A DNA stretch of 22,318 nt. Origin: a virus. The notes under the pieces are model-generated. The model had not been told where the DNA came from. It saw nothing but the letters and a program-made list of their open reading frames with translations, and ran no database searches. The stretch is from positions 1 through 22,318 of IMG/VR virus record IMGVR_UViG_3300036846_000846; one strand, given 5' to 3'. Below are positions 2,303 to 22,182 of the stretch, piece by piece (the first letter of the stretch is position 1; the number at the start of each line of letters is the position of its first letter). The translations under genes and the position numbers were made by a program.

Positions 2303-3340
2303 ATGGCGTTGATAGGAACTGGACTCGTCCCGGCAGGTCCGATCGGCCTCGAACTAACGGCGACAGTCCGCCGGGTGTTTGCAGAATGCGTTGTTGTTCT
2401 GCTCTACAAGCAGAATCCTCTGCTCAGTCTGCTGCTCAGAAATGCGATCCGTGCATCCGGCGGTATAGCACCATACACCCAGCCAGTGCAGACAGGCCGT
2501 TACGTCCAATCCACATGGATGGGACCAGCTGGAGCGTTTAGCCTGCCGCCCGATGTCGCCGCCACGCTCAACGCCGAGTTCAACATGTGCGCGCTGGCGA
2601 CCCCTGTCACCAGCTTCGGCCTCGAACAACTCGTGACGCAGGATGCGATCGCGGTGTGCTCAAGGTTGATGCTCAAGATGAACGACATGAAGAACAGCGC
2701 GCTGGAGTCGCTTGCGGCGGCGCTGTTCGGATCGAACTTCACCGGTCCGGCGCCGGGCACGACCAACGTGCAGCAGATGTTCGGGCTCAACGATGCCTAT
2801 GGCAACATCGCGCTATCGCCGATCTACGGCGGGCTTGACCGAAACGTCTATCCCAGCTGGCAGGGCACCGTTGTCCCGGCCGCGGGCGCCATCCTCACCC
2901 GGCAGGCCTTCATCCAGAAGTTCCTGCAGGTCGCCAAGGCGTCCGGCGGCGAGGCCCCGGACTTCGCGGTGCTGTCGGTCGAAGACTGGTCAACGCTGAT
3001 GACCGATTTCATGAGCCTGGAGCGGTACAACAACGATCCGAGCTCGCGTTGGGGCAAGGACGATCCGGTGAACTCCGGATTCCGCGGTCTGCTGCTGGGC
3101 GACACCCCGATCTTCTTCGACCTGAACTGCCCGGTCGGCACCGGCTACATTTTCAACTCGAAATATCTGACCACGGTGATCCACGAGGATTGCAACTTCG
3201 CCTGGACCGGCTGGTACTCGACCATCCCGCAAGGCCAGATTTCCAGCGTCGGCTTGACGTTGACCGCGCTCAATCTGGTTTGCTCCAAGCCGCCGACCGG
3301 CGCCATCCTGCAGGGGATTACGGGCGGAGCCCCATGGTAA
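2303..3340 (+). CDS. Major capsid protein
   Basis: 345 residues, preceded by a strong ribosome binding site (AGGAGG, 2291-2296). The size, the helix-rich middle (residues about 95-150) and the beta-rich C-terminus with repeated aromatic/Gly segments (GTGYIFNSKYLTTVIHEDC, WYSTIPQGQISSVGLTLTAL) fit an HK97-fold major capsid protein. The N-terminal region lacks the charged delta domain typical of self-scaffolding capsids, in keeping with a separate scaffold gene upstream. Its TAA overlaps the ATG of the following gene. Capsid assignment is by position, strong SD and composition; the exact capsid family was not identified. Confidence 0.8.
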   Translation: MALIGTGLVPAGPIGLELTATVRRVFAECVVVLLYKQNPLLSLLLRNAIRASGGIAPYTQPVQTGRYVQSTWMGPAGAFSLPPDVAATLNAEFNMCALATPVTSFGLEQLVTQDAIAVCSRLMLKMNDMKNSALESLAAALFGSNFTGPAPGTTNVQQMFGLNDAYGNIALSPIYGGLDRNVYPSWQGTVVPAAGAILTRQAFIQKFLQVAKASGGEAPDFAVLSVEDWSTLMTDFMSLERYNNDPSSRWGKDDPVNSGFRGLLLGDTPIFFDLNCPVGTGYIFNSKYLTTVIHEDCNFAWTGWYSTIPQGQISSVGLTLTALNLVCSKPPTGAILQGITGGAPW

Positions 3341-5362: not shown

Positions 5363-7003
5363 ATGCCGATCCAATCGGCCAACCCGCCCGACATCACCAC
5401 CGTCGACCAGTGGAAGGGGCTTAACCAGCAGTCTCTACGTGCAACTATTGACGACCAGGAGTTGTGGTGGTCGGAAAATTTATACGCAGTCGGGCCCGGC
5501 GATCTTCGCTCCTGCTGGGGCCGCAGCGCGGCCATCTACACGGCGCCTGCCGGCGTTACGATCCTGCGCATCTTCTTTGGCTACTACGGATATCCCACGC
5601 CGTTCCTGACCCAGCCGCCGCCGGGCCGCATGGGCTGGATGTTCCTCTCGGATGGGACCGTCGACGAGGTTGACGTCGACACCGGAGCGGTGACCCACGT
5701 CGGCGCCATCTGGCAACCGGTCTCCCCGTACTGGTTCGCCGACGCGGTGGTGTGGCGTCCGCGGTTCTTCGGCAACACGCCGGGGCAGCGGGGTGGCGTC
5801 CTGTTCGGCTCCCCCAAGGGCATGTACGCCTGGGACGGCACCACGGTTTCCGCGCCCGGCCAACCTGCCCCCGATTGGCTGACCTCCGCCAACGAACAGC
5901 CGGTGGTTTCCACCACGATGCCGGTGGGCCTGCCCGGGATCCTGGCCATGGAGGTCTATCAGAGCCGGGTGTGGGTCGTGGGCGAGACGGTGATGTCGTT
6001 CTCAGCCGCATCGAACGGCTGCGATTTCTCGGTGGCCGGCGGCGGCGGATCGTTCGGCTATTCGGGCAAAACCCTGACCACCACCTATCGCGACCTGCGC
6101 GCCTCGGCCTCCTACCTGTTCGTGTTCGGCGATTCCTCGACCGACATGGTCAATAACGTCATAACTTTCGGCGACGGCACCACGATCCAGTTCACTACCC
6201 AGTTCAACTACCTGAATGTCGACCCGATGGTGGGTCATGCCTTCCCGCGCAAGGTCGGACACTCCGGGCGCTACTCGGTGCTGGCCAGCGGCGCGCGCGC
6301 GTTCCCCTCGAGCGCAAACAGCCGCAACTCCGGCGGCGGACTCTGGTTGCTGCTGGGAGGGGAGGCGCAGGAAATCGGACAGAAGCTCACCAATCTCTGG
6401 ATGACGCTTGACACCAGCCAGTTCTATCCGACCTTCGCCACCGTCACCATGTTCGGACGCCGCATCGTGCTGCTCAACGGAATGTTCGTCGACCCATGGG
6501 GCGTCAAGCGTGCCATGATGCTGGGCTACGACGGCACCACCTGGACAATCATGTCGCAGGGTCTGAACCTGACCAACATCGGATATATCGAGCAGGACTC
6601 AATCTGCGATGTCTACGGCACCGATGGAAACTCGCTCTATCATTTGTTTGACCATCCCGATCCAACGCTCAAGAAAAAGCTGTCGACCAAGATGCTAAAG
6701 AATAAAGGTCCGCTCACGCACCTCTCAATCAACAACTGGAAACGGCTGTTCCTCGAGATCAGCGACAAGTCGGGTCAAGGCGTCTCCATCCTCGGCACGG
6801 TGACGACCGCAGGCGGCGGCGTTCCCAACGGAACCGAGGACGTTGCCTTCCAGCTGGCGGCGGGCGTCACTTCCGGCTTCGAAGCGCAGCCGCTGTACGG
6901 TCAGGGCATCATGGCAGGCGTTGATCTCGAATCGTTCTCGCCCGACTTCATCATCGAGCGCATCCACCTAGTGGGGGAATCACGTAGCCTGTTCGGCGCC
7001 TGA
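5363..7003 (+). CDS. Tail accessory / packaged-DNA stabilization protein, P22 gp10-like
   Basis: 546 residues with SD GGAG before ATG 5363. The opening (WKGLNQQSLRATIDDQELWW, SENLYAVGPGDLRSCWGR) is typical of P22 gp10-type tail accessory factors: a statement of mainly-beta protein with a Gly/aromatic-rich propeller-like body (GMYAWDGTT, MEVYQSRVWVVGET, LMLGYDGTTWT-like strands). These proteins bind below the adaptor and close the packaged head. A C-terminal part with KNKGPLTHLSINNWKRLFLE is less repetitive. Order adaptor then gp10-like matches P22. Family call is by pattern and synteny. Confidence 0.7.
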   Translation: MPIQSANPPDITTVDQWKGLNQQSLRATIDDQELWWSENLYAVGPGDLRSCWGRSAAIYTAPAGVTILRIFFGYYGYPTPFLTQPPPGRMGWMFLSDGTVDEVDVDTGAVTHVGAIWQPVSPYWFADAVVWRPRFFGNTPGQRGGVLFGSPKGMYAWDGTTVSAPGQPAPDWLTSANEQPVVSTTMPVGLPGILAMEVYQSRVWVVGETVMSFSAASNGCDFSVAGGGGSFGYSGKTLTTTYRDLRASASYLFVFGDSSTDMVNNVITFGDGTTIQFTTQFNYLNVDPMVGHAFPRKVGHSGRYSVLASGARAFPSSANSRNSGGGLWLLLGGEAQEIGQKLTNLWMTLDTSQFYPTFATVTMFGRRIVLLNGMFVDPWGVKRAMMLGYDGTTWTIMSQGLNLTNIGYIEQDSICDVYGTDGNSLYHLFDHPDPTLKKKLSTKMLKNKGPLTHLSINNWKRLFLEISDKSGQGVSILGTVTTAGGGVPNGTEDVAFQLAAGVTSGFEAQPLYGQGIMAGVDLESFSPDFIIERIHLVGESRSLFGA

Positions 7004-7090
7004 TTGACGGACCCCCCTCCACAGGATTAGCCTCCCCGCCGCGGTCAACCCGATCGCGAATCAAGAATGCCCTTAACAATGGAGGCCATC

Positions 7091-7132
7091 ATGGCTCGCA
7101 GAGGTCGAAGAGGCCGTCGGCGTCGGAGGTAG
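7091..7132 (+). CDS. Tiny arginine-rich peptide 1 (13 aa)
   Basis: ATG 7091 to TAG 7132 encodes MARRGRRGRRRRR, nine Arg in thirteen residues and no acidic residue. A canonical SD (GGAGG, 7081-7085) stands five bases before the ATG. In-frame ATGs at 7067 and 7079 could add eight or four residues, but only 7091 has the well-placed SD. It is the first of five consecutive basic ORFs. A DNA-binding, protamine-like or J-protein-like role is an inference from charge alone. Confidence 0.5.
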   Translation: MARRGRRGRRRRR

Positions 7133-7136
7133 GACC

Positions 7137-7178
7137 GTGTCTCGCCGCCGAAGATATCGCAGATATCGTCGGAAATAA
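7137..7178 (+). CDS. Tiny arginine-rich peptide 2 (13 aa, GTG start)
   Basis: GTG 7137 to TAA 7178 encodes VSRRRRYRRYRRK (Met at position 1 when initiated): eight Arg, one Lys and two Tyr. SD-like GGAGG at 7125-7129 lies seven bases before the GTG, inside the end of peptide 1. The Arg/Tyr pattern (YRRYRR) recurs in peptide 4 (YRRSYRR), suggesting related roles. Its short length makes it uncertain. Confidence 0.45.
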   Translation: MSRRRRYRRYRRK

Positions 7179-7181
7179 CCG

Positions 7182-7334
7182 ATGCCGCGCCAGTATGTCC
7201 GACCGGCCAATCTGGCGCGGGCGGTTAAGGTCAAAGATTGGAGAAAGCCCAACGAGCTCAATTGGCGACCTCGGCTTCACTCCTATCGAATGACCCACAC
7301 AGGCAATCGGATGCGACGAACGCGGAGGCTGTGA
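7182..7334 (+). CDS. Small basic protein 3 (50 aa)
   Basis: 50 residues with 12 Arg and 3 Lys against one Asp and one Glu. Starts MPRQYVRPANLARAVKVKDW and ends MRRTRRL. Only a weak SD (GGAA, 7171-7174) precedes the ATG, which lies three bases after peptide 2's stop, so reinitiation is plausible. Its TGA overlaps the ATG of the next ORF (TGATG). Probably binds nucleic acid or a polyanion; no family recognized. Confidence 0.5.
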   Translation: MPRQYVRPANLARAVKVKDWRKPNELNWRPRLHSYRMTHTGNRMRRTRRL

Positions 7335-7501
7335 TGGCAAAGCGCGGAGCGCGGAGTGGCGTCGGCATCGGCGCCGTCGGCGGCCATAAGATGCCGCGGA
7401 GCGAAGTGCAGGTGCCGCAACGCCGCGGCACCATGGCAAGAGACTGCAGCCCACATGGGGCAGGACAGCGATATCGGCGCAGCTATCGCCGAGGACGGTG
7501 A
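7334..7501 (+). CDS. Small basic protein 4 (55 aa)
   Basis: 55 residues with 12 Arg and 2 Lys; Gly/Val-rich N-terminal half and an Arg/Tyr-rich end (QRYRRSYRRGR). Start chosen at ATG 7334 because it overlaps the previous stop and has GGAGG at 7324-7328, five bases upstream. A longer in-frame version from 7238 is not favoured. Its stop overlaps the ATG of ORF 5. The 3' part also overlaps the start of the VRR-NUC frame. Confidence 0.5.
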   Translation: MAKRGARSGVGIGAVGGHKMPRSEVQVPQRRGTMARDCSPHGAGQRYRRSYRRGR

Positions 7502-7946
7502 TGGCGAGGCGCAGGCGGCGTTCCCATGGCGCCCGGACTCTGCCCAGAGTCGCGCACGCCGCGCGCGGCCGCAGGGGACGAAAACACTGACCGAATTCGA
7601 CCTTCACAAAGCCGTCGCGCAATACCTTGATTGGTGCCTCGCGCCGCCAGCGTTCTACACCACCTTCCCGGCCGGCTGGGACAGAATGAGCAAGACCCGC
7701 GCCGGCATGCTGTACGCAGCCGGACTGAAAGCCGGCATTCCTGACATCCTCATCTTCTACAACGGGCGCACGATCGCTCTGGAATTGAAGGCCGGCAAGG
7801 GCAGGCTGTCCCGCATCCAGAAATCAACCATATTGCTGCTCGAGGCGGCCGGCGTGATTGTCCAAGTCTGCAAGAGCGTGGACGAGGTGGAGACGGGCAT
7901 GCGACTGCACGGAATCCCCTTGCGCGGAACAGTGAGAGCAGCATGA
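7455..7946 (+). CDS. VRR-NUC family nuclease
   Basis: Drawn from ATG 7455 (164 residues). The domain begins near residue 45 (TEFDLHKAVAQYLDW). It shows the PD-(D/E)XK-type core of VRR-NUC proteins: GIPD with Asp97, then ALELKAGKG with Glu110 and Lys112, then a Gln (Q122) after the strand, and a C-terminal helix. VRR-NUC enzymes are usually structure-specific or single-strand-directed DNA nucleases; in phages they commonly stand alone. The start is uncertain: no good SD precedes 7455, and the first about 45 residues overlap the basic ORFs 4 and 5 and look low-complexity. Its location within the late virion operon rather than with the recombination genes is unusual. The stop overlaps the next ATG (ATGA). 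Confidence 0.85.
   Translation: MGQDSDIGAAIAEDGDGEAQAAFPWRPDSAQSRARRARPQGTKTLTEFDLHKAVAQYLDWCLAPPAFYTTFPAGWDRMSKTRAGMLYAAGLKAGIPDILIFYNGRTIALELKAGKGRLSRIQKSTILLLEAAGVIVQVCKSVDEVETGMRLHGIPLRGTVRAA
7501..7590 (+). CDS. Small basic protein 5 (29 aa)
   Basis: 29 residues beginning MARRRRRSHGARTLPR and ending RGRRGRKH: 11 Arg, one Lys, three His, no acidic residue. The ATG overlaps the preceding TGA, and GAGGA at 7491-7495 is a suitable SD. It lies wholly inside the N-terminal part of the nuclease ORF in another frame. Either both frames are used or the nuclease starts further downstream than drawn. Confidence 0.45.
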   Translation: MARRRRRSHGARTLPRVAHAARGRRGRKH

Positions 7947-9671: not shown

Positions 9672-11264
9672 ATGTCCTACGTCGGCGGATCAGGAGCAGC
9701 GGGTGGGTACGGCGGTGGATTGGCCTCCCTGGTAAGCAGCCTGTTTGGCCTCGGCGGAACCGGCGCAACCGGCACGCCTTTGTCGTCGGTAGCCAGTTCA
9801 AGTTCAGGCGCCTACGGGGACGTGTCACTGACGGATCCCGGATTAGCCAGCGCCATTGATCAGTCCACCATCCAGACCGCCCTGCAGCAGCCGAGCTCGA
9901 GCGCACCGCAGCCGGTCGACCCGAATCAGGCATCGGCGCCAACCGGGAGCATGCTGGCGACCGCGCTCACCAATTCGCAGCTGGGCGTCCCGCCGGTGAC
10001 GACGGACCCCAACGACCCCACTGGTGGGAACCAGAGCCCGACGCTGGGCGGTCCGGATCAGCCCGCACCCGGGCAGGGCGCACAGCCTTGGGGCACGCCC
10101 TACCCGGGATCCGGCCGGACGCCTCCGCCAGGGTACCAGCGGGTGTTCACGCCTCCCGGAGCCGACCCCGTCGCCAGCGGTTCCCAACCTCCTGGCCAGC
10201 AAGCCGCCCCACAGGGCGGTGGTGGTGGCGCCCTTCCCCGTCTGCCACCGGCGCAACAGGGTGCGGGCGCCGTCGGCAACATGGGCGGCGCCGCCGGAAC
10301 GCCGCTCCCCCAGCTGATCGCGATGATGATGCAGCGCATGCGCCAGCGGGGGCAGATTCCGCCATGGGCCCGAGGGCCCGGAGGCCTGACCCGGCCCGGC
10401 TACGGGGTCGGCGCCGGTCGCTATCCGTTCCCTGGCCGCGGCCGTGCCCCATTTTCGCCACAATCGCCTCGGGCTTTTGTTCCAAGAGAGGCCATGGGAG
10501 GTTCCTACGCGCCGCGCGGGCTCGGCGGCGAGCGCGGACTCGTCCCGCAGGGGCCCAACTACATGCAGCGGCTCTACCAGGGCGAATATCCGCCGCACGA
10601 GAGCACGATGCGGAACATCCAGACCCCCGCCGGACCGATGAAGGTCAATCCGCTCGCGGCCGGCGATGTCCAGGGCTTCACCCGCGATCTGCAGCGGCAC
10701 GGCTTCCCGTTCGAGAAACCGTGGGGCTCCTACAATCGGCGCCGCATGCGGTGGTCCAACAACTGGTCAAGCCACTCCTGGGGCACGGCCTTCGACATGG
10801 ACAACCAGGATGGACCGATGTCGCCGCGCGCGCAGCGGTGGATGCAGCAGAACCCTGGCCTGTTCCAACAGCTGCTGCGGCAGTGGAATATGAGCCAGCC
10901 GCTTCCAGGTCGTGATCCTCGCCACATCGAATGGACCGGCCCCAATCCGCAGTATCATCCGCCGAACACGCAAACGGCTGGTGGCGGCGATGACACGCCG
11001 AACAAATACGGTCCGGGTGTGAGGCTTTTCCCCGATGGTACGCTTAGACGGGTTGACGAGCAGGGCAACCTGATCCCTGGCGTCAGCGGCATTCCAGGTA
11101 CCCCGCCGCCGCTGCCGCGCGCGAGGCCGGCGACGGCCGACCAGCCGCCTACGGAGGAGAAACCGCCAGAAACCGCGCCAGCTGAAGCTGATCCCGCCGG
11201 GCCAGATCTCAGCAGCATGTTCGCCGCCGATGACACCGGGGAAGACGACACCGAGACAGCCTGA
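9672..11264 (+). CDS. Large Gly/Pro-rich virion protein with M15-type peptidase domain
   Basis: 530 residues. About residues 1-260 are Gly/Pro/Gln/Ser-rich and disordered. Around 290-430 lies a globular domain with the zinc-peptidase M15 (VanY/VanX-like) signature: SSHSWGTAFDMD, with S366, H368, G371 and D375 as in SxHxxGxAxD, and HIEW with H418 and E420. H368, D375 and H418 would be the zinc ligands. M15 enzymes cut D-Ala-containing or L-Ala/D-Glu peptide bonds in peptidoglycan. The C-terminus is Pro/Glu-rich. Likely a virion-carried lysin helping DNA entry, though a role as endolysin cannot be excluded as no other lysin is seen. Starts three bases after the previous stop. Confidence 0.72.
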   Translation: MSYVGGSGAAGGYGGGLASLVSSLFGLGGTGATGTPLSSVASSSSGAYGDVSLTDPGLASAIDQSTIQTALQQPSSSAPQPVDPNQASAPTGSMLATALTNSQLGVPPVTTDPNDPTGGNQSPTLGGPDQPAPGQGAQPWGTPYPGSGRTPPPGYQRVFTPPGADPVASGSQPPGQQAAPQGGGGGALPRLPPAQQGAGAVGNMGGAAGTPLPQLIAMMMQRMRQRGQIPPWARGPGGLTRPGYGVGAGRYPFPGRGRAPFSPQSPRAFVPREAMGGSYAPRGLGGERGLVPQGPNYMQRLYQGEYPPHESTMRNIQTPAGPMKVNPLAAGDVQGFTRDLQRHGFPFEKPWGSYNRRRMRWSNNWSSHSWGTAFDMDNQDGPMSPRAQRWMQQNPGLFQQLLRQWNMSQPLPGRDPRHIEWTGPNPQYHPPNTQTAGGGDDTPNKYGPGVRLFPDGTLRRVDEQGNLIPGVSGIPGTPPPLPRARPATADQPPTEEKPPETAPAEADPAGPDLSSMFAADDTGEDDTETA

Positions 11265-11329
11265 TCGATGCAAACGCAATAAATGCAAATGCAAGGAAAT
11301 TTTTCCCCGGATTTTTTGGATTCCTGACC
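11265..11329 (+). other. AT-rich intergenic leader with ATGCAA repeats and weak hairpin
   Basis: A 65-bp gap between two late genes that is much more AT-rich than its surroundings. It contains three ATGCAA copies (11268-11273, 11283-11288, 11289-11294) and an inverted repeat GGAAATTTTTCC (11295-11306) followed by six T (11312-11317). This could be a weak terminator, a promoter or a processing site. The next gene's SD is not obvious. No function is assigned. Confidence 0.3.
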
Positions 11330-13786
11330 ATGGTCGACTTCACACAGCCGCAAGAGCAGCAGGAAGGCGACGGTTACGACCAGTCCCAGTTCCCGGAGAA
11401 CAGCGACTGGGACCGAATCGCGCCCGAACAGGACCGGCCGCGCCAGCCCTATTACGAATACCAGGGCGCCAAGCAGCGTCAGTCGCAGGATTGGGGCACC
11501 CCCAACCGAGCCAACCAATTTGCCGAAGACTACGGCCCTGCCATGCCACAGGGGCCGTACTGGCCGACCATGCAGCAGCTGCCGAACCTGATGAAGTCGA
11601 CCATGGGCGACATCAGCACGTTTTCGATGCCGATGCAGCGCGGCTCGCTCGCGGCAATGCAGGGAACGCTTGCGTATTTGAAAGCCTATGACAAGGCGCG
11701 GAAAGAGGCGCTAACCGAGCAGCGGCAGGAAGCAAACGACGCCCCGATCCGGCATTTGAGGGAACTCGATCTCCAGCTGAAGACACTTGAAGCTGAAACG
11801 GATCGAAAGAGCCGGGAGTATCGCGACATCCTAGCGGGGACCGATGTCAACAGCCCCAAACAACACGATCAATTATTGGCGGCCGCTATCAAAAACCAAG
11901 ACCATTATGTGCAGACTCTCATCGAAGAAGGACATATGGACAAAGCCCTTGCTGTCCTGGCAGAGCACGACAAGAATTCGCAGGAGTGGCAAGGCATACG
12001 GAAGGCTATTAATTCCGAATTGAATGACGCAGCAACTCGAAAAGAAAAAGAAGCGCAGACGGATCTGGCGAGAGAAAGAATCAGGAAGTCGCAAGAGCAA
12101 AAGGACGGTACAGGACAAGCCGGAACTCCCGTTCCTGCATATCCGAAAGGTGAAGCGCCTGATCCTCCCAAACCGGAGGAGACCGCACCAGCAGTAAAGG
12201 CCCCGGGGACATCTTCTACTCCATCAGAAAAAGCCCCTTCAGAAAAAGCCCCCGAGCAGGAGACTGTCCCGGAAACCGTTCCTCCTGCCGAGGTCCTGGA
12301 ACCGTCCAAGCCTAAATTTCATTCCGGACCACAACCGCCACCTTCGCCCGGAGAACTGCCTCCGCCGGTCCCTAAGCGCCCGACGTTCCCTCCCCGCGAC
12401 CCCGCTGCCCAACAGGAAGGCGCCGCCGAGGAGCCGGAACAGCAACAACCCGTCCGCCTTGCCTCGGCGGATGACCCCAGTGTGGCGTCGGACGCCCCCC
12501 AGCCTGGATTTGCCGGGCAGCGCGTGGCGCAGGCCGCGCCAGAGGGCGCGCTAGGAGCGAAAGCACCAGTCCAGGCCGCGCCGAGTCCTCAACAGCCTCT
12601 ATCGATCGATGAATTCGCGGAAAAATTAGCCCGCGAAAGCGGAGTTCCGGGCCTGACCGCGACGGAGATCAAGAATTCTGCCCAGACGATCGCCAGTGGA
12701 CAGCCCGGAGCGCATATTTCCTACGGCGCCGCAGGAAGTGCGCAACAAAGGTCTGAAGAATATCTGATGAACCGGCAGGCGAGAAAATTTCTAGATTACC
12801 AGAATGCAGGGGTGTCGGAAATCAACCGACAGCTACTGGAGGCCGGCAAGAAAAACCAAGACATGACCCCCGAACAGAAGCGTTGGCTGCAAGACTGGGG
12901 CATCGGCAAGATTATGGAGATCGATCCAACTTTTGGAGCGACGCTGCGTCCGATATTGGACGGCAACAGGCAACTTCGCAGCGCCGGCTACACCAGCAAC
13001 TCTCCCTATAATCAAAAATTGACCGCGACCGTATTCGCTCTCGATTTTGACAAGGGGACCGACAGAGCGTTCAGCGAAAATCGTTTCGCCCAGAAGGCAC
13101 AGGCAATAAAAAACTTCGGGCCTGGGGGATTGTGGGGGACTCGCCTGACGAGCAACGCCACCGTCATGCAGCACAGCGCCGTGCTGTGGGATAAATTGAT
13201 GGCCCTCGATAACGGCAAGATACAGGCGGCCAACGGGCTGGAGAATTATCTCAGGACTCAGAGTGGTGACCCCAGGGTCGTTGAGTTCCAGGCTGCCCGT
13301 CTGGCGTTCGCGGAGGAAATGGCAAGGTCATTCCGCGGCAACAACAGTTCTGTGACCGAGGTGAATGAAAATCTGAAGCTCCTAAGCTCTTCGTCATCCA
13401 AGCAGCAAGGCATGGGTTACCTGCGGACAATGACCGGCCTGCTGATGGGTGCGGTCAACACCGGAACCGATCTGTACAACTTCTCAACATTCTCACATAT
13501 GACGCCCGAGCAGATGCTCGAGAAATACGGTGGCAAAGAAGCGGTCAAGTGGATGCACACATTGCAAGGACAGAAAGTGATCGACCCCAACAATAAAGAT
13601 TTCGCCAAGGGGCTGTCCAGCTACCAATCAAGCGACCACCTGCGGGACCCGACCGCGGAGGCCAATGAAAGCGACCAATCCCAGATATTCGGGTGGTACA
13701 CCCGAAACCAGTACAATCCAAACGTCGACAAAGAGAGGCTGCAGCGGACAAGAGCTTATCTGGTCAAGCAAGGGTTGTTATACTGA
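11330..13786 (+). CDS. Large internal virion / ejection protein candidate
   Basis: 818 residues. N-terminal about 100 are Gln/Pro/Tyr-rich, then a helical region about 105-260 that is Lys/Glu/Gln-rich and likely coiled coil (DLQLKTLEAETDRKSREY). A Pro/Glu/Lys/Ala-rich linker follows to about 420, including a tandem SEKAP repeat from a 15-base duplication at 12224-12253. The C-terminal half (about 425-818) is alpha-helical and soluble, with SIDEFAEKLARESG and AVKWMHTLQGQKVIDPNNKD. Long helical-plus-linker proteins at the end of the virion cluster are typical of podovirus internal core or ejection proteins. No catalytic motif seen. Ends in a TGATG overlap. Confidence 0.6.
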   Translation: MVDFTQPQEQQEGDGYDQSQFPENSDWDRIAPEQDRPRQPYYEYQGAKQRQSQDWGTPNRANQFAEDYGPAMPQGPYWPTMQQLPNLMKSTMGDISTFSMPMQRGSLAAMQGTLAYLKAYDKARKEALTEQRQEANDAPIRHLRELDLQLKTLEAETDRKSREYRDILAGTDVNSPKQHDQLLAAAIKNQDHYVQTLIEEGHMDKALAVLAEHDKNSQEWQGIRKAINSELNDAATRKEKEAQTDLARERIRKSQEQKDGTGQAGTPVPAYPKGEAPDPPKPEETAPAVKAPGTSSTPSEKAPSEKAPEQETVPETVPPAEVLEPSKPKFHSGPQPPPSPGELPPPVPKRPTFPPRDPAAQQEGAAEEPEQQQPVRLASADDPSVASDAPQPGFAGQRVAQAAPEGALGAKAPVQAAPSPQQPLSIDEFAEKLARESGVPGLTATEIKNSAQTIASGQPGAHISYGAAGSAQQRSEEYLMNRQARKFLDYQNAGVSEINRQLLEAGKKNQDMTPEQKRWLQDWGIGKIMEIDPTFGATLRPILDGNRQLRSAGYTSNSPYNQKLTATVFALDFDKGTDRAFSENRFAQKAQAIKNFGPGGLWGTRLTSNATVMQHSAVLWDKLMALDNGKIQAANGLENYLRTQSGDPRVVEFQAARLAFAEEMARSFRGNNSSVTEVNENLKLLSSSSSKQQGMGYLRTMTGLLMGAVNTGTDLYNFSTFSHMTPEQMLEKYGGKEAVKWMHTLQGQKVIDPNNKDFAKGLSSYQSSDHLRDPTAEANESDQSQIFGWYTRNQYNPNVDKERLQRTRAYLVKQGLLY
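12224..12253 (+). repeat. 15-bp in-frame tandem duplication (SEKAP x2)
   Basis: Two adjacent 15-base copies starting TCAGAAAAAGCCCC, at 12224 and 12239, encode SEKAP twice inside the Pro/Glu-rich linker of the large virion protein. The period is a multiple of three and keeps the frame. This is a simple coding repeat, not a regulatory array. Confidence 0.85.
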
Positions 13787-15246
13787 TGGAAGACGATGAA
13801 CTCCTGAACCAGAACGAAGGCGCGCTCGCCCAACCCGAGCCGGAAACTTCCGTACCGCCGGACCCTAGGGCAGAAGCCGAGTATCAAGCAAAGATCCGGA
13901 AACAGGAAGCGGCGGCGGCCAAGCCCCCGGTTCTGAAGCCGGAATTGAGTGCGGCCGACGTGGACGCCAGGATCGGAGGCGGGGGTGGAGCCGAGTCTAA
14001 ACTAGGCGATGCCGACGTTGACCGGATCACGGGCGCACCTCCTCCCGGTACGCCGGAGAGCATGCGCAGTCTTTTCCAGCCGGCGCGCACGGTGAGCGGC
14101 TCCATCGGCCACGCACTGGCCCAGTCGGCAGCCGAAACGGCAGTCGGCGCGGGACAGCGAACGGACGAGGCGCTGAATTGGTTGTACGGCCCCGATATAG
14201 TCCGCCGATCGTTCAAGCGCGGGCCTAGCGGGACGGTCGGCGACATCAAGGTCACCCAATCACCGCCCGTCCGGGACATGCCAAGCAGCCTAAGCTGGCT
14301 GGACAAAATGGCGCGCGGCACCCGCCGCGGAACATGGCTCGACGCGCTGGCCAAGAAAGAGTCGGAGGGACCCATTTCGAGCGCCACCGGTTTTGCTGGC
14401 GATCTTGGGCAGATCGCCGCGCTCTCGGCTCTAACCCGGTCGCCTATGGTCGCTGGCGGCGTCTACGGGTTGACCCGCCCGGCCGATACGCCGGGCGACG
14501 TTGCCATCAACACTGCCGCCGGAGCCCTCATCCCAGGCGGCCTCAAGGCCCTGGCGTGGAAGTATCCTGCGTTGGGGACACCGGCCCAAATCCGCGCAGG
14601 CATAACCACAATCGCCTCCAAGGCGGCAGACCTCGCCGGTAGAATTTCAGCAAAGCTCCCGATCCCCAAAAACAGCTTCTTCGGAAATGTCGAGAGCACC
14701 CTCACCAGCGTTAGATCAACAGTGCCTCCAGGTGAGCAAAAAGCACTTCTGAACCAACTCGAAAGCAGAATCGAGAACGCGAAGACCAAGGCTGGCAGTA
14801 AATTTGGGGCGCAGGAGATGACCGACCTCATGACGGATGTGTCAAAGGCCGAGCACAACGCTGTCGAAGCCGGACACAGAGAACTTGCCGAGGGCATCGG
14901 AGATGTACGGGAGACTGTGCAGGACATGGTGGCTCAACGAGGGGGCCAAGCGGTGCGGTCCCAGTTCGGTGCTCTCAATGCCCAGCGGGGCAATGCCGTG
15001 AGGAATTTCCTGCGATCAACGCAAAGGGAAGCGCAGCAGACCCGGCGCGGACCTCTCCACTATAACCCTTTTGCTCACCCGCTTGCCGCCACCGCCCACA
15101 TCGGCTCTCAAATCGCCACCCGTGGTGGCCCAGCCTTCCACCGTGCGGTAACACAACACAGCCTGCCCGGAATTCTGGGGGCGGAAGGGTTGGTCAAAGG
15201 AGCCCAGGCCGGAGAACAGATGAGGGACGATGACAGCGAGAATTAA
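13786..15246 (+). CDS. Internal virion protein candidate (486 aa)
   Basis: 486 residues from the ATG that overlaps the previous TGA; an in-frame extension back to 13693 lies inside the upstream gene and is rejected. N-terminal about 75 residues are acidic and Pro/Glu-rich. A middle part has Gly/Ala-rich segments (GFAGDLGQIAALSALTRSPM, INTAAGALIPGGLKALAW) compatible with membrane-active helices, as in ejection proteins. The C-terminal half is helical and charged (ENAKTKAGSKFGAQEMTDLM). Together with the two upstream genes it forms three successive large proteins, like the gp7-gp20-gp16 set in P22. This is by position and composition only. Confidence 0.55.
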   Translation: MEDDELLNQNEGALAQPEPETSVPPDPRAEAEYQAKIRKQEAAAAKPPVLKPELSAADVDARIGGGGGAESKLGDADVDRITGAPPPGTPESMRSLFQPARTVSGSIGHALAQSAAETAVGAGQRTDEALNWLYGPDIVRRSFKRGPSGTVGDIKVTQSPPVRDMPSSLSWLDKMARGTRRGTWLDALAKKESEGPISSATGFAGDLGQIAALSALTRSPMVAGGVYGLTRPADTPGDVAINTAAGALIPGGLKALAWKYPALGTPAQIRAGITTIASKAADLAGRISAKLPIPKNSFFGNVESTLTSVRSTVPPGEQKALLNQLESRIENAKTKAGSKFGAQEMTDLMTDVSKAEHNAVEAGHRELAEGIGDVRETVQDMVAQRGGQAVRSQFGALNAQRGNAVRNFLRSTQREAQQTRRGPLHYNPFAHPLAATAHIGSQIATRGGPAFHRAVTQHSLPGILGAEGLVKGAQAGEQMRDDDSEN

Positions 15247-18008: not shown

Positions 18009-18656
18009 TTAGCCGATAAGTCTTCGCAAAGTCGCCTCGCCCGCGTCCACTTCAGCCAGGAATGTCTCAAGCCGCGTCCGCAGCAGATCAATGATGCGAT
18101 TGTTGCGCTCGCAAACCATGTAGTAAGGCGGAAAATCCGGGTGGTAGGAGTAGAAGTGGACGAGGTCGAACTGCCCCACCAGCATCTGGCCCTGCACCTG
18201 GATCACGTAGGAGTCACCCGGGCCATCCAACAAATATCCGACATGGGTCCACGGCGCCGGGCATTTGATCTCGACAGCTTCGCTGGCTAGATTGGGATTG
18301 TCGGTCCTGATGATCCGATCCGGACTGCTGCCCACCTTGCCGTCATCGCTGGTGATAAAACCTCCCGGCTCGAGCGTCATGCGGCGGCCGAAGGTGTCGC
18401 GCTGCCGGCGCAGAAAGTGCTTGACGGCCTCACCTTCCAGCTTGGTGCCGCGGCGCATCCACTCGGTCGGCTTGACGCGACCGAGGTCCTGCTTGATCAC
18501 CCGCTCCGCCAAGAGTTCATTACGGTAGTCGTGCCGCTGCTCGGACAGCGCCCCGCCTTTGGTCATGATCCGGTGGAATTGGCTCGTGGTTGGAATGCCA
18601 AGACGCTTCTCCAGCCATTCCGGGGAGCCCTGCTCGAGGTCCCACTTTACGCTCAT
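18009..18656 (-). CDS. YqaJ-type viral exonuclease (lambda-exonuclease-like)
   Basis: 215 residues with SD GAGGAG. Has the YqaJ order: GSPEWLEKRLGIPTTSQF at the N-terminus, RRGTKLEGEAV (E74/E76), GSSPDRI (D113), VEIKCP (E129-x-K131), and YVIQVQGQMLV (Gln motif). These are the PD-(D/E)XK metal and substrate residues of lambda-exonuclease-type enzymes that resect 5' strands of double-stranded DNA. The product is a 3' single-strand for the annealing protein. Encoded with the ERF protein in the same operon, it forms the usual two-component recombinase. Start confirmed by overlap with the upstream stop. Confidence 0.9.
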   Translation of the reverse strand: MSVKWDLEQGSPEWLEKRLGIPTTSQFHRIMTKGGALSEQRHDYRNELLAERVIKQDLGRVKPTEWMRRGTKLEGEAVKHFLRRQRDTFGRRMTLEPGGFITSDDGKVGSSPDRIIRTDNPNLASEAVEIKCPAPWTHVGYLLDGPGDSYVIQVQGQMLVGQFDLVHFYSYHPDFPPYYMVCERNNRIIDLLRTRLETFLAEVDAGEATLRRLIG

Positions 18657-18859
18657 TGCTCCTCCTCTGGGATTTTGACGCCATCGATCAGCCTTTCGAG
18701 CGTGCGCTTGACGGCGCGCAGCCTGTCCATGTGATATTCGGCCACGGACGCCCGCATTTTTCCGACAGATATCTGATGGGCGTAGACCCTCTGTCGCAGC
18801 GTCAGTTCGCGCTCAACCTCCTCTAGCTGGGCGCGAAGAGAGATTTTCCTTTCGCTCAT
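18653..18859 (-). CDS. Small coiled-coil protein between ERF and YqaJ
   Basis: 68 residues, charged and helical throughout (ISLRAQLEEVERELTLRQRV then MDRLRAVKRTLERLIDGV), a probable coiled coil. It overlaps both neighbours by four bases, so it is co-translated with the two recombination proteins and may regulate or bridge them. No family recognized. Confidence 0.65.
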   Translation of the reverse strand: MSERKISLRAQLEEVERELTLRQRVYAHQISVGKMRASVAEYHMDRLRAVKRTLERLIDGVKIPEEEQ

Positions 18860-19644
18860 TTTTTTTCCTTGCCGACGTCAGCCTTTGCTGCTGCTTCAGC
18901 CTTTGCTCCTTCCAGCTTGGCTTTTCGTTCATTGTAGGCCAGCACCAACTCGGTTTTGTCGGCGGGAAACAGGTCCATTTTCAGCAACTCATCGCCGATC
19001 TTTTTCAACGCCGCCAGCGTTTCGCAGGCGTTCATCTCCGCGATTTTGGCGTCCACGTTGATCTGCTCCGGTTCCGGCGTATGCTCCGGCCCCGGGCGCA
19101 CCCGGTCGCCCGCAAACTCTTCATCCTCGGCCTCGGCCAGATTGAAAATCATCTTGAGCAGCGCACGCCTACCGTAGGTCACCGCTGCAATGCTGGCATG
19201 GGTTGGGGTCATCATTTGCCGCCCGGCGATGCCGGTGGTCACCACCGGAATCCACTTCTCGCGTCTGCGGGTCTCGGCGCCGCACGAGACGTAGGCGACC
19301 AGCCTCAACCAATCCGGCCGATCAGAGGGCGTCTCGTCGTTGAATTCCACGCTGAAACCGCATTCGGTGTAGATCGGACGAATCGCTTCATCGAGCGCAG
19401 CCAACGAGGCGTATCGGGATCTGGTCTGTGTGTTCGCGCTGTCCTTGCTGATCGTCGTCATATGGGACTGCGCCAAGGACATCTGCTCGTTATAGTGGGT
19501 CGCAGCCGCCCGCCGATCCCACTCCTCCTGCAGCGCCAGCAGTTTCGCCAGCTTGTCGACGTCGAGGTCTTTGACCGCGGCGACCTTGGCGATAACGTCA
19601 TGGTAATCGCGCGTCACCACCGCCGTTTGGTTCGTGGCAGGCAT
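18856..19644 (-). CDS. ERF-family single-strand DNA annealing protein
   Basis: 262 residues from ATG 19644 (an AAAGGG element lies nine bases upstream; an in-frame Met at 19689 would place the start in the divergent control region). ERF hallmarks: helical N-terminus, SKDSANTQTRSRYASLAALD then EAIRPI with the YASLxxLxexIRP core (about 85-100), WIPVVTTG and GRRALLKMIFNLAEAEDEE (about 175-195). ERF proteins anneal complementary single strands and pair with YqaJ/lambda-exonuclease partners. The C-terminal 50 residues are Lys/Ala/Glu-rich. First gene of the leftward operon, transcribed from the 62-bp region shared with the HTH gene. Confidence 0.9.
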   Translation of the reverse strand: MPATNQTAVVTRDYHDVIAKVAAVKDLDVDKLAKLLALQEEWDRRAAATHYNEQMSLAQSHMTTISKDSANTQTRSRYASLAALDEAIRPIYTECGFSVEFNDETPSDRPDWLRLVAYVSCGAETRRREKWIPVVTTGIAGRQMMTPTHASIAAVTYGRRALLKMIFNLAEAEDEEFAGDRVRPGPEHTPEPEQINVDAKIAEMNACETLAALKKIGDELLKMDLFPADKTELVLAYNERKAKLEGAKAEAAAKADVGKEKK

Positions 19645-19706
19645 TGTGCATGACCCTTTCAGTGTGTATAGTAATAAGACAACGACCATATTTAAATGGA
19701 CACACG
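19645..19706. promoter_or_regulatory. Divergent control region with nested inverted repeats
   Basis: Sits between the leftward ERF operon and the rightward HTH gene. It holds a palindrome, CCAT-ATTTAA-ATGG (19686-19699), inside an outer pair GTGTGT (19662-19667) and ACACAC (19700-19705). It is AT-rich, with TATAC-like hexamers on the minus strand (around 19667-19671). The palindrome sits where a repressor bound would block both promoters. Binding by the adjacent HTH protein is inferred; no strict -35/-10 pair is clear. Confidence 0.5.
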
Positions 19707-21178: not shown

Positions 21179-21342
21179 GCATCCCTGGATACGACGCTTG
21201 GAAGCTGGCTTCCCCGCCCGGCTACGATTATGTGCCGGAGTGCTCGGCTTGTGATGATGCCGGCTGCCCGCAGTGCTGCGAGACCTCGCCGATGACGGAA
21301 GACGACCTAATCGAGATTATTCAACAGGAGATGAGTAGATGA
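21175..21342 (+). CDS. Small Cys-rich protein (55 aa)
   Basis: 55 residues from the ATG that overlaps the previous stop; an in-frame frame-extension back to 20848 crosses another gene. Central CSACDDAGCPQCC has five Cys arranged as CxxC pairs and could bind zinc. N-terminus is short with PGYD repeats, C-terminus acidic helix (EDDLIEIIQQEMSR). Possibly a small zinc-ribbon-like phage protein. Stop overlaps the next ATG (ATGA). Confidence 0.6.
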   Translation: MSIPGYDAWKLASPPGYDYVPECSACDDAGCPQCCETSPMTEDDLIEIIQQEMSR

Positions 21343-21563
21343 CCGACCAAACTCTAGGGCAATCTCGCGTGCGGATGTCTTTCAATCCATCGGCGAATCA
21401 GGACGTCGAGAACATCAAGATGCGCGCCGCCGACCTGATTGATCTGTGCGAGGACTTCAAAAAGAAGTGCGGTAGCAATGGTGAGGCGGTGCGCCTGTTC
21501 TCTCTCGCGCAAACGCATTTTGAGGACGCGGCTATGTGGGCCGTGAAAGGCGTGACGATATGA
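21339..21563 (+). CDS. Acb2/Tad1-hairpin-like protein, possible cyclic-nucleotide sponge
   Basis: 74 residues. Pattern: VRMSFNPSANQDVENIK, then MRAADLIDLCEDF, and a C-terminal helix AQTHFEDAAMWAVKGVT. This matches my memory of small phage proteins annotated with the Acb2/Tad1 hairpin domain: an N-terminal FNPS-type turn, a long helix and an A-x-T-x-x-E-x-A-x-M-W-A-V-K end. Acb2 and Tad1 oligomers bind signal nucleotides (cGAMP, cyclic oligonucleotides, gcADPR) and block CBASS or Thoeris. Ligand specificity cannot be read here. ATGA overlap on both sides. Membership is moderate; the anti-defence role is inference. Confidence 0.6.
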   Translation: MTDQTLGQSRVRMSFNPSANQDVENIKMRAADLIDLCEDFKKKCGSNGEAVRLFSLAQTHFEDAAMWAVKGVTI

Positions 21564-21778
21564 AGTTGGGCGCCACCGGCAAATTTCCTCTCGGCTCCCT
21601 TGGTCCAGAGGATGAAGGTGAATTGCGAATGGGTGTTGCCCACGACAGTAATGGCGACGTCCATATAAACTTCGGCACGCCGATCACATGGTTTGCGATG
21701 CCGAGCGATCAAGCGATCAAATTCGCCAAGCTGATCTTACATCATGCCGGCGCGAAGAAGGTGGAGATCACTCTATGA
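21560..21778 (+). CDS. Conserved small phage protein (72 aa)
   Basis: 72 residues from ATG 21560 (ATGA overlap). Contains a pattern I recognize from a phage family of unknown function: KLGATGKFPLGSLGPEDEGE, then VHINFGTPITWFAMPSDQAI, and an AKLILHHAGAKKVEI end. A single beta-rich domain followed by a helix is likely. The neighbour on the 3' side starts in a 4-base overlap. Confidence 0.65.
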   Translation: MKLGATGKFPLGSLGPEDEGELRMGVAHDSNGDVHINFGTPITWFAMPSDQAIKFAKLILHHAGAKKVEITL

Positions 21779-22182
21779 CCGGAAAACCCTGGACCCGTGA
21801 ACAGGATGAGGAATTGCTCGAGTTAGAGGCAGAGGGGTATTCAGCCTCACTGATTGGTGAGCGCGTCGGCCGATCGCGTGAGTCGGTGATCGGTCGCTCC
21901 ACGCGACTGCGCGGCGCCAAGCGCCTCGTCAAGGCGGAGCCGCGGAGGACCACGACCATAATTCGCAAGGATGGACAAATACCCAAGCCCAAGCCGGTAC
22001 CAGTTCCGCCTGTGGATAATGGACAGCATGGGATCAGCTTTTTCGAACTAACCGAAACCAGCTGCCGCTGGCCATCTGGGTATAGGGCACCGTATTTGTT
22101 CTGCGGCGCGCCGCGAGCGGGTGTGGGCCACTCCTATTGCCAGGAGCATGCCCGTATGGGGTTCAGTCACCGGGACCGCTGA
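21775..22182 (+). CDS. gcrA-like: GcrA-family cell-cycle regulator-like protein
   Basis: 135 residues from ATG 21775 (ATGA overlap). N-terminal HTH: WTREQDEELLELEAEGYSAS then RVGRSRESVIGR (W6, residues 22-46), close to the GcrA start (WTxExxxxLxxLwxxGxSxxxIAxxLGxxSRNAVIGK). A Lys/Pro linker (KPKPVPVPP) follows. C-terminus TSCRWPSGYRAPYLFCGAPR and HSYCQEH carries C97, C110, C122 and H125, the zinc-like ligand set of GcrA. Host GcrA recruits sigma-70 at CcrM-methylated GANTC promoters. A phage copy may redirect transcription or interfere with the host cell cycle. The N-terminal GcrA hallmark RNAVIGK is changed (RESVIGR). Confidence 0.8.
   Translation: MTGKPWTREQDEELLELEAEGYSASLIGERVGRSRESVIGRSTRLRGAKRLVKAEPRRTTTIIRKDGQIPKPKPVPVPPVDNGQHGISFFELTETSCRWPSGYRAPYLFCGAPRAGVGHSYCQEHARMGFSHRDR

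Follow-up and report, generated by a model that had tools for sequence, protein, structure and literature searches.

What are the very short, arginine-rich open reading frames that follow each other in the late region of a podophage genome, and what might their products do? The window analysed here, a stretch of 22,318 nt covering late podophage genes on a 22.3-kb IMG/VR virus record, had been predicted to carry five of them in a row, each with an SD, between a gp10-like gene and a nuclease gene.

Mini-genes behind a predicted tail nozzle gene

All five ORFs were located exactly at the predicted positions, directly after a gene (5363-7003) whose 546 aa product matched no sequence family. AlphaFold modelling of this protein gave a poor pLDDT of 43.7 with 9 sequences and one of 88.8 with 72 relatives. 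The top Foldseek matches of the latter model were podophage tail nozzles, those of Pa223, P22 (gp10), Sf6 (gp8) and T7; the best was the Pa223 tail (E 2.5e-17, TM 0.69), and P22 gp10 gave a TM of 0.58-0.60. By its predicted fold, the upstream gene product is a tail nozzle of the P22 gp10/T7 gp12 type. The features of the locus are the following (numbers after SD are pairing energies).

8-1027: portal protein, C-terminus
2303-3340: major head protein (phrog_9953)
5363-7003, + strand: gp10-like tail nozzle gene, upstream anchor of the array (AlphaFold model and Foldseek)
7004-7033, + strand: possible, weak sigma70-like promoter at the nozzle stop, TTGACG-18-TAGCCT (8/12 matches)
7091-7132, + strand: mini-gene 1, family A, MARRGRRGRRRRR (SD -9.3; signs of in-frame selection)
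7137-7178, + strand: mini-gene 2, A-like, GTG start, VSRRRRYRRYRRK (SD -10.9; in all four clade members)
7182-7334, + strand: mini-gene 3, family D, 50 aa (weak SD, -3.5; signs of in-frame selection)
7334-7501, + strand: mini-gene 4, divergent family E, 55 aa (TGATG coupling; SD -9.5; signs of in-frame selection)
7501-7590, + strand: mini-ORF 5, 29 aa, probably a nuclease shadow (SD -5.9; substitutions follow the nuclease frame)
7455-7946, + strand: VRR-NUC nuclease gene closing the array (PF08774, 5.9e-6; phrog_5702, Holliday junction resolvase, 1.9e-10)

The arginine richness of the ORFs was borne out, with 9/13, 8/13, 12/50, 12/55 and 11/29 residues from the first to the fifth. Four good SDs and a weak one, and successive junctions of +4, +3, TGATG and TGATG (two short gaps and two overlaps), also agreed with the original prediction. 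The window's peptides are short (13-55 aa), arginine-rich (22-69%) and strongly positive (net +9 to +13); one copy each of the four supported ones, identified below, carries a total charge of +43. Elements resembling the promoter-like one, TTTACG-17-TAGACT and TTGCCT-17-TAATCT, are present in two close relatives (L020 and L075); a formal promoter scan found no promoter.

Coding potential was examined by comparing the window frame by frame with the other members of its clade, L019, L020 and L075. Synonymous differences clearly exceeded nonsynonymous ones in 7182 (pS 0.50, pN 0.12 against L020; 0.43 and 0.10 against L075) and in 7334 (0.58 and 0.15; 0.49 and 0.10), as expected for in-frame purifying selection. 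The same tendency appeared in 7091 (pS 0.45, pN 0.05 against L075). Support for 7137 is modest because it is so short (0.47 and 0.09 against L020; 0.23 and 0.19 against L075). The result was reversed at 7501-7590, where comparison with L075 gave a pS of 0.62 and a pN of 0.17 in the nuclease frame and a pS of 0.18 and a pN of 0.32 in the mini-ORF frame; the ATG of this ORF is also lost in L075. Since the codon changes follow the nuclease frame there, the fifth ORF is probably a shadow of the VRR-NUC N-terminus, lying at the slot where most relatives carry a gene of another family (F, below). Conservation supports four of the five predicted mini-genes as genuine genes, but not 7501-7590 as a separate one.

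The nuclease itself most likely starts at ATG 7455, CTG 7587 being a possible start. A frameshift joining the fifth ORF to the nuclease was considered and dropped, the A-AAA site being absent (by eye) in L019. In that relative (5974-6020; on the contig of L002), the counterpart of 7334 lacks its middle part and is reduced to about 14 codons, yet it is still basic and coupled.

Elsewhere in the window, the large genes at 9672-15246 matched no informative family. A protein with an Acb2/Tad1 hairpin domain (21339-21563, + strand; PF24729, 2.4e-11) is likely a cyclic-nucleotide sponge directed against CBASS/Thoeris defence, and a GcrA-like cell-cycle regulator (21688-22182, + strand; PF07750, 1.1e-15) suggests an alphaproteobacterial host. 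A YqaJ-type exonuclease (18009-18656, - strand; PF09588) and an ERF annealing protein (18856-19689, - strand; PF04404) form a phage recombination pair.

The array in related phages

Relatives of the nozzle protein were collected by profile searches of IMG/VR, which gave 74 loci at first and later 98 confirmed loci, of which 80 were kept. Their nozzle proteins are 45-96% identical to that of the window and the layout is kept: tandem arginine-rich mini-ORFs lie directly 3' of the nozzle gene in nearly all of them, 3-8 basic genes per array (median 6). Counting as a run consecutive ORFs of 11-80 aa with at least 20% arginine, an SD pairing of -4 or better and gaps of -14 to +25, runs of at least three were found 3' of the nozzle gene in 59 of the 80 loci. 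None was found in 240 dinucleotide shuffles, on the 80 opposite strands or in 464 upstream windows, and a single one in 155 windows further downstream. The window's own array scores just two in a row under this strict rule, because the SD of 7182 is weak. The predicted gene order, with the mini-genes between gp10-like and nuclease genes, is kept across many phages; this check, suggested with the original prediction, did not refute it, 7501-7590 being the one ORF at which the conserved frame is that of the nuclease. This polycistronic, start-stop coupled set of arginine-rich mini-genes is a set of real genes, far beyond chance, carried by a large group of uncultured podophages.

When sorted by motif, the mini-genes fell into at least six recurring families, each under strong purifying selection. 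They are listed below with the number of loci in which each occurs (of 80), the pooled dN/dS of close pairs (the pairs share ancestry and so do not count as independent; all families show a large effect) and the share of starts with an SD pairing of -5 or better (somewhat inflated, as starts were picked partly by SD; 14% for control ATGs).

Family A: short poly-Arg peptides, with an xWLDFTED head in a subset (dN/dS 0.08)
Family B: RLKQTRRARRIRARK (64 loci; dN/dS 0.08; SD 90%)
Family C: MVLVPASRKAARARRR (22 loci; dN/dS 0.12; SD 83%)
Family D: KxWRLPxWRPRLxSYRKGRRL (at most 71 loci, an upper bound as the loose regular expression also catches some unrelated ORFs; dN/dS 0.17; SD 46%)
Family E: MARGVxLGPRSRVDPAG..RRHRGHRQG (73 loci; dN/dS 0.10; SD 100%)
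Family F: GPVxRMPWSDDAWPSDW..SPRPGARTGPVR (69 loci; dN/dS 0.21; SD 87%)

The window holds A-like genes (7091 and 7137), a D gene (7182) and a divergent E gene (7334), tied to typical E through intermediates such as L086 and L047; it has no B, C or F. A seventh kind (ARRNLRKARR) follows the nuclease gene in some loci. Third codon positions take most of the differences (700 of 932 in B, 1217 of 1617 in E). Where a column is arginine in all or nearly all sequences, between four and six different codons are used for it, usually five or six, which shows that selection acts on arginine in the protein. The mini-proteins, 12-75 aa long overall with a net charge of about +9 to +15 each, are probably unfolded on their own. 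Conserved non-basic motifs stand beside the basic stretch: xWLDFTED in the subset of A, GPRSRVDP in E and PWSDDAWPSDW in F. Searches of Pfam, PHROGs, NCBIfam and PDB sequences gave no convincing match to the families, ribosomal and known small basic proteins included.

Two variations of the layout were noted. An insert of about 570 bases separates nozzle gene and array in L007 (7660-8160; on the contig of L075) and has a reverse-strand frame resembling, by eye, a phage lysozyme; since the array is intact behind this insert, it may have its own promoter. In L024 (6094-6321), as well as L033, L049 and L061, an additional gene rich in Arg and Gly (RGG-like), about 50-75 aa long, stands between E and F.

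In most of the loci examined, the array is closed by a gene whose product is predicted to be a Holliday-junction or structure-specific nuclease. Three unrelated kinds occupy the slot: VRR-NUC; a PDDEXK/RusA-like/Hjc-like kind (phrog_244, with a PF24608 match just under the cut-off); and a phrog_1770 resolvase. Examples of the slot are L025 6299-6712, L032 6374-6991, L024 6500-6937 and 7455-7946 of the window. Judged from these family matches, the predicted Holliday-junction enzyme at this fixed position has undergone non-orthologous replacement. Late in infection such nucleases usually serve to remove DNA branches before packaging, and the neighbourhood therefore points to DNA packaging.

Basic mini-genes were also found at a second location. 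A profile search with family B was empty after tblastn confirmation, probably owing to low-complexity filtering, but DNA patterns (an SD followed by Met-Ala-Arg5, and a degenerate pattern for family B) succeeded. The podophages found in this way have portal and head proteins 29-43% and 31-42% identical, respectively, to those of the window. One or two basic mini-genes lie directly behind the portal gene in L186, L205, L224/L235 and L233, and true family B genes start 15-48 bases past the portal stop in L233, L243, L256 and L278. In these wider relatives the post-portal mini-genes precede the scaffold and head protein genes. Two annotated uncultured phages from Manatee Spring, MW202753 and MW202825 (head protein 35-36%, portal 37-38% identity), carry behind the portal gene two Lys/Arg-rich mini-ORFs of 13 aa that have strong SDs and are missing from the annotation (L093 4758-4919 and L094 25912-25752, - strand; MW202753 and MW202825). 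About 40 conserved bases between these mini-ORFs, TTTCCTTCACCGGAAAAGGGTGTGGCTGCCTTCCCTCT, may form an RNA structure. The single post-portal mini-gene of L186 (5913-6010, + strand), MARRRRRGRKSRR, is followed by a terminator-like hairpin and a T run (by eye). The annotations of the more distant isolates Mx8 and BUCT555 (about 26% head-protein identity) leave no gap at that place for such genes, and that of MW202489 has no long gaps at the corresponding place; as Mx8 and BUCT555 have similar head proteins and no room for them, the basic mini-genes appear to be dispensable for that head fold. Whether behind the nozzle or the portal gene, the mini-genes belong to the head/tail module. The simplest story would be that one or two post-portal basic genes moved or spread behind the nozzle gene and multiplied in the window's group.

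Possible roles of the mini-proteins

We favour, with moderate confidence, the reading that the mini-genes encode virion-destined, protamine-like peptides, predicted to bind the phage dsDNA and to act in its packaging. DNA binding is predicted from charge and virion location from gene neighbourhood, and the packaging role is likewise a prediction; such a protamine- or J-like function is the best inference from charge, neighbourhood and post-portal location. The small arginine-rich proteins, made late, would bind the double-stranded DNA during packaging; they would most likely travel into the head together with the genome or coat the inside of head or portal, and would neutralise part of the DNA charge, like microvirus J or the protamine-like proteins of some eukaryotic viruses. 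With the basic part holding the DNA, the non-basic motif could tether the peptide to the capsid, the portal or the packaging machinery. Short arginine-rich peptides from another viral system do bind DNA in gel-shift tests (PMC6163548), and J/VP8 is a packaged, Arg/Lys-rich DNA-binding peptide that is important for DNA packaging (PMC11281519). Against this reading, it has been argued that there is no evidence of much neutralisation of phage dsDNA by basic proteins and that dense packing leaves little room for them (PMC3281028). The largest related contigs measure 42 kb, and a genome of that length contains about 84,000 phosphates against +43 per four-peptide set, so that hundreds of copies of each peptide would be needed to matter electrostatically. 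This number is not absurd, since T4 packs about 1000 internal protein molecules among its DNA (PMC3012670). That the genes appear dispensable for the head fold shared with Mx8 and BUCT555 also counts against the reading, and basic peptides could equally bind RNA or host targets.

The peptides might instead, like T4 internal proteins, be packaged and ejected with the DNA and act mainly inside the host rather than condensing DNA in the head, coating the incoming DNA against nucleases or defences or aiding envelope crossing; we consider this rather unlikely. Podophage genes 3' of the nozzle gene often encode ejection proteins. The gene set also varies, families B, C and F coming and going, as does that of the T4 internal proteins (PMC3012670). 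However, T4 IPI* is compact and folded (PMC3012670), whereas the mini-proteins are short and saturated with arginine, and the position of the genes in the wider relatives, behind the portal gene and ahead of scaffold and head protein, speaks for head assembly. It is likewise improbable that the peptides act in the infected cell, outside the virion, as RNA-binding or nucleoid-compacting peptides, nuclease cofactors or host inhibitors. RNA is readily bound by arginine-rich peptides of the lambda N type, and the nuclease gene after the array would provide a possible partner; but regulators of that type are single early genes and the array is a multi-gene set in the late structural region. The nuclease, moreover, is swapped for unrelated kinds while the array stays, which makes a specific cofactor role unlikely.

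We give very little credence to the idea that the mini-ORFs are leader peptides tuning the downstream nuclease through Arg-tRNA supply or coupling. The strong start-stop coupling into the next gene would fit, as would AGA/AGG codons, whose share is about twofold higher in the mini-genes (about 18%) than in the nozzle gene (8%). Yet the codon itself, which an attenuator should conserve, is not conserved, since the near-invariant arginine columns use four to six codons interchangeably; non-arginine motifs (GPRSRVDP, PWSDDAWPSDW) are kept as well, and in the wider relatives the genes do not lie upstream of a nuclease gene. That the ORFs are chance open frames, shadows thrown by a GC-rich sequence, is hardly credible. 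This caveat, raised with the original prediction, applies to 7501-7590; elsewhere it is rejected by frame-specific purifying selection, by the excess of SDs at the starts and by the near-absence of runs in the null sets, and lower-GC relatives employ lysine besides arginine in their mini-ORFs.

The packaging reading that we favour has a bolder form, to which we hold only tentatively and which may well be wrong. A lineage of dsDNA tailed phages would possess a chromatin-like system of about six co-translated arginine-rich microproteins with different anchoring motifs, packaged with the genome, neutralising much of its charge and setting the internal pressure and/or protecting the ejected DNA. 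It would have originated from one or two post-portal genes and expanded behind the nozzle gene.

Comparison with known systems

The original prediction stated that no phage system of this layout had been described, and we found none in the open-access literature. None of the characterised phages checked showed the array. Neither the window DNA nor the nozzle nor family E had a match in 50,697 phage records, and no match was obtained with the nozzle or with family F in 84,980 bacterial and archaeal species genomes. The protein families of the array, at least six, have no match in any family library searched, and genes of 12-75 codons are short enough for annotation to miss, as with the unannotated equivalents in MW202753 and MW202825. 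Tailed phages are the textbook case of nearly naked packed DNA, balanced by metal ions and polyamines. If the packaging reading is true, protamine-like gene arrays in podophage head/tail modules contradict the published view on basic proteins (PMC3281028), and the array would make packing pressure, ejection and genome protection accessible to genetics.

The J/VP8 proteins of microviruses (phiX174, SpV4) are also very short Arg/Lys-rich peptides encoded by a late phage gene, with a basic part for the DNA and a conserved end docking in the capsid (PMC11281519). They differ in belonging to tailless ssDNA phages and in being encoded by one gene, whereas the array consists of about six coupled genes of unrelated families in dsDNA podophages; the nozzle fold, portal and major head protein mark the carrier as a tailed podophage. 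No homology to known small basic virion proteins, J/VP8 included, was detected in Pfam, PHROGs, NCBIfam or PDB sequences. Baculovirus P6.9 and the protamine-like proteins of other eukaryotic dsDNA viruses are likewise small and arginine-rich, and are thought to condense dsDNA for packaging (PMC6163548), a function that for the array is predicted from its genes. Unlike the array, they are encoded by single genes of eukaryotic viruses that have no portal-driven tailed-phage head, and they share no sequence match with it. The T4 internal proteins (IPI-III) resemble the mini-proteins as a varying set of small proteins, packaged among the DNA in about 1000 copies with lysines touching it (PMC3012670); they are, however, larger, folded and lysine-based, with a targeting peptide that is cleaved off, and the array showed none of these traits. 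P22-like and T7-like podophages share the module of nozzle (gp10/gp12 fold), portal and major head protein, and we know of no arginine-rich mini-genes in the head/tail module of P22 or T7. Small basic DNA-binding virion proteins are already known; the occurrence in tailed phages of several coupled families of this kind is, as far as we found, new.
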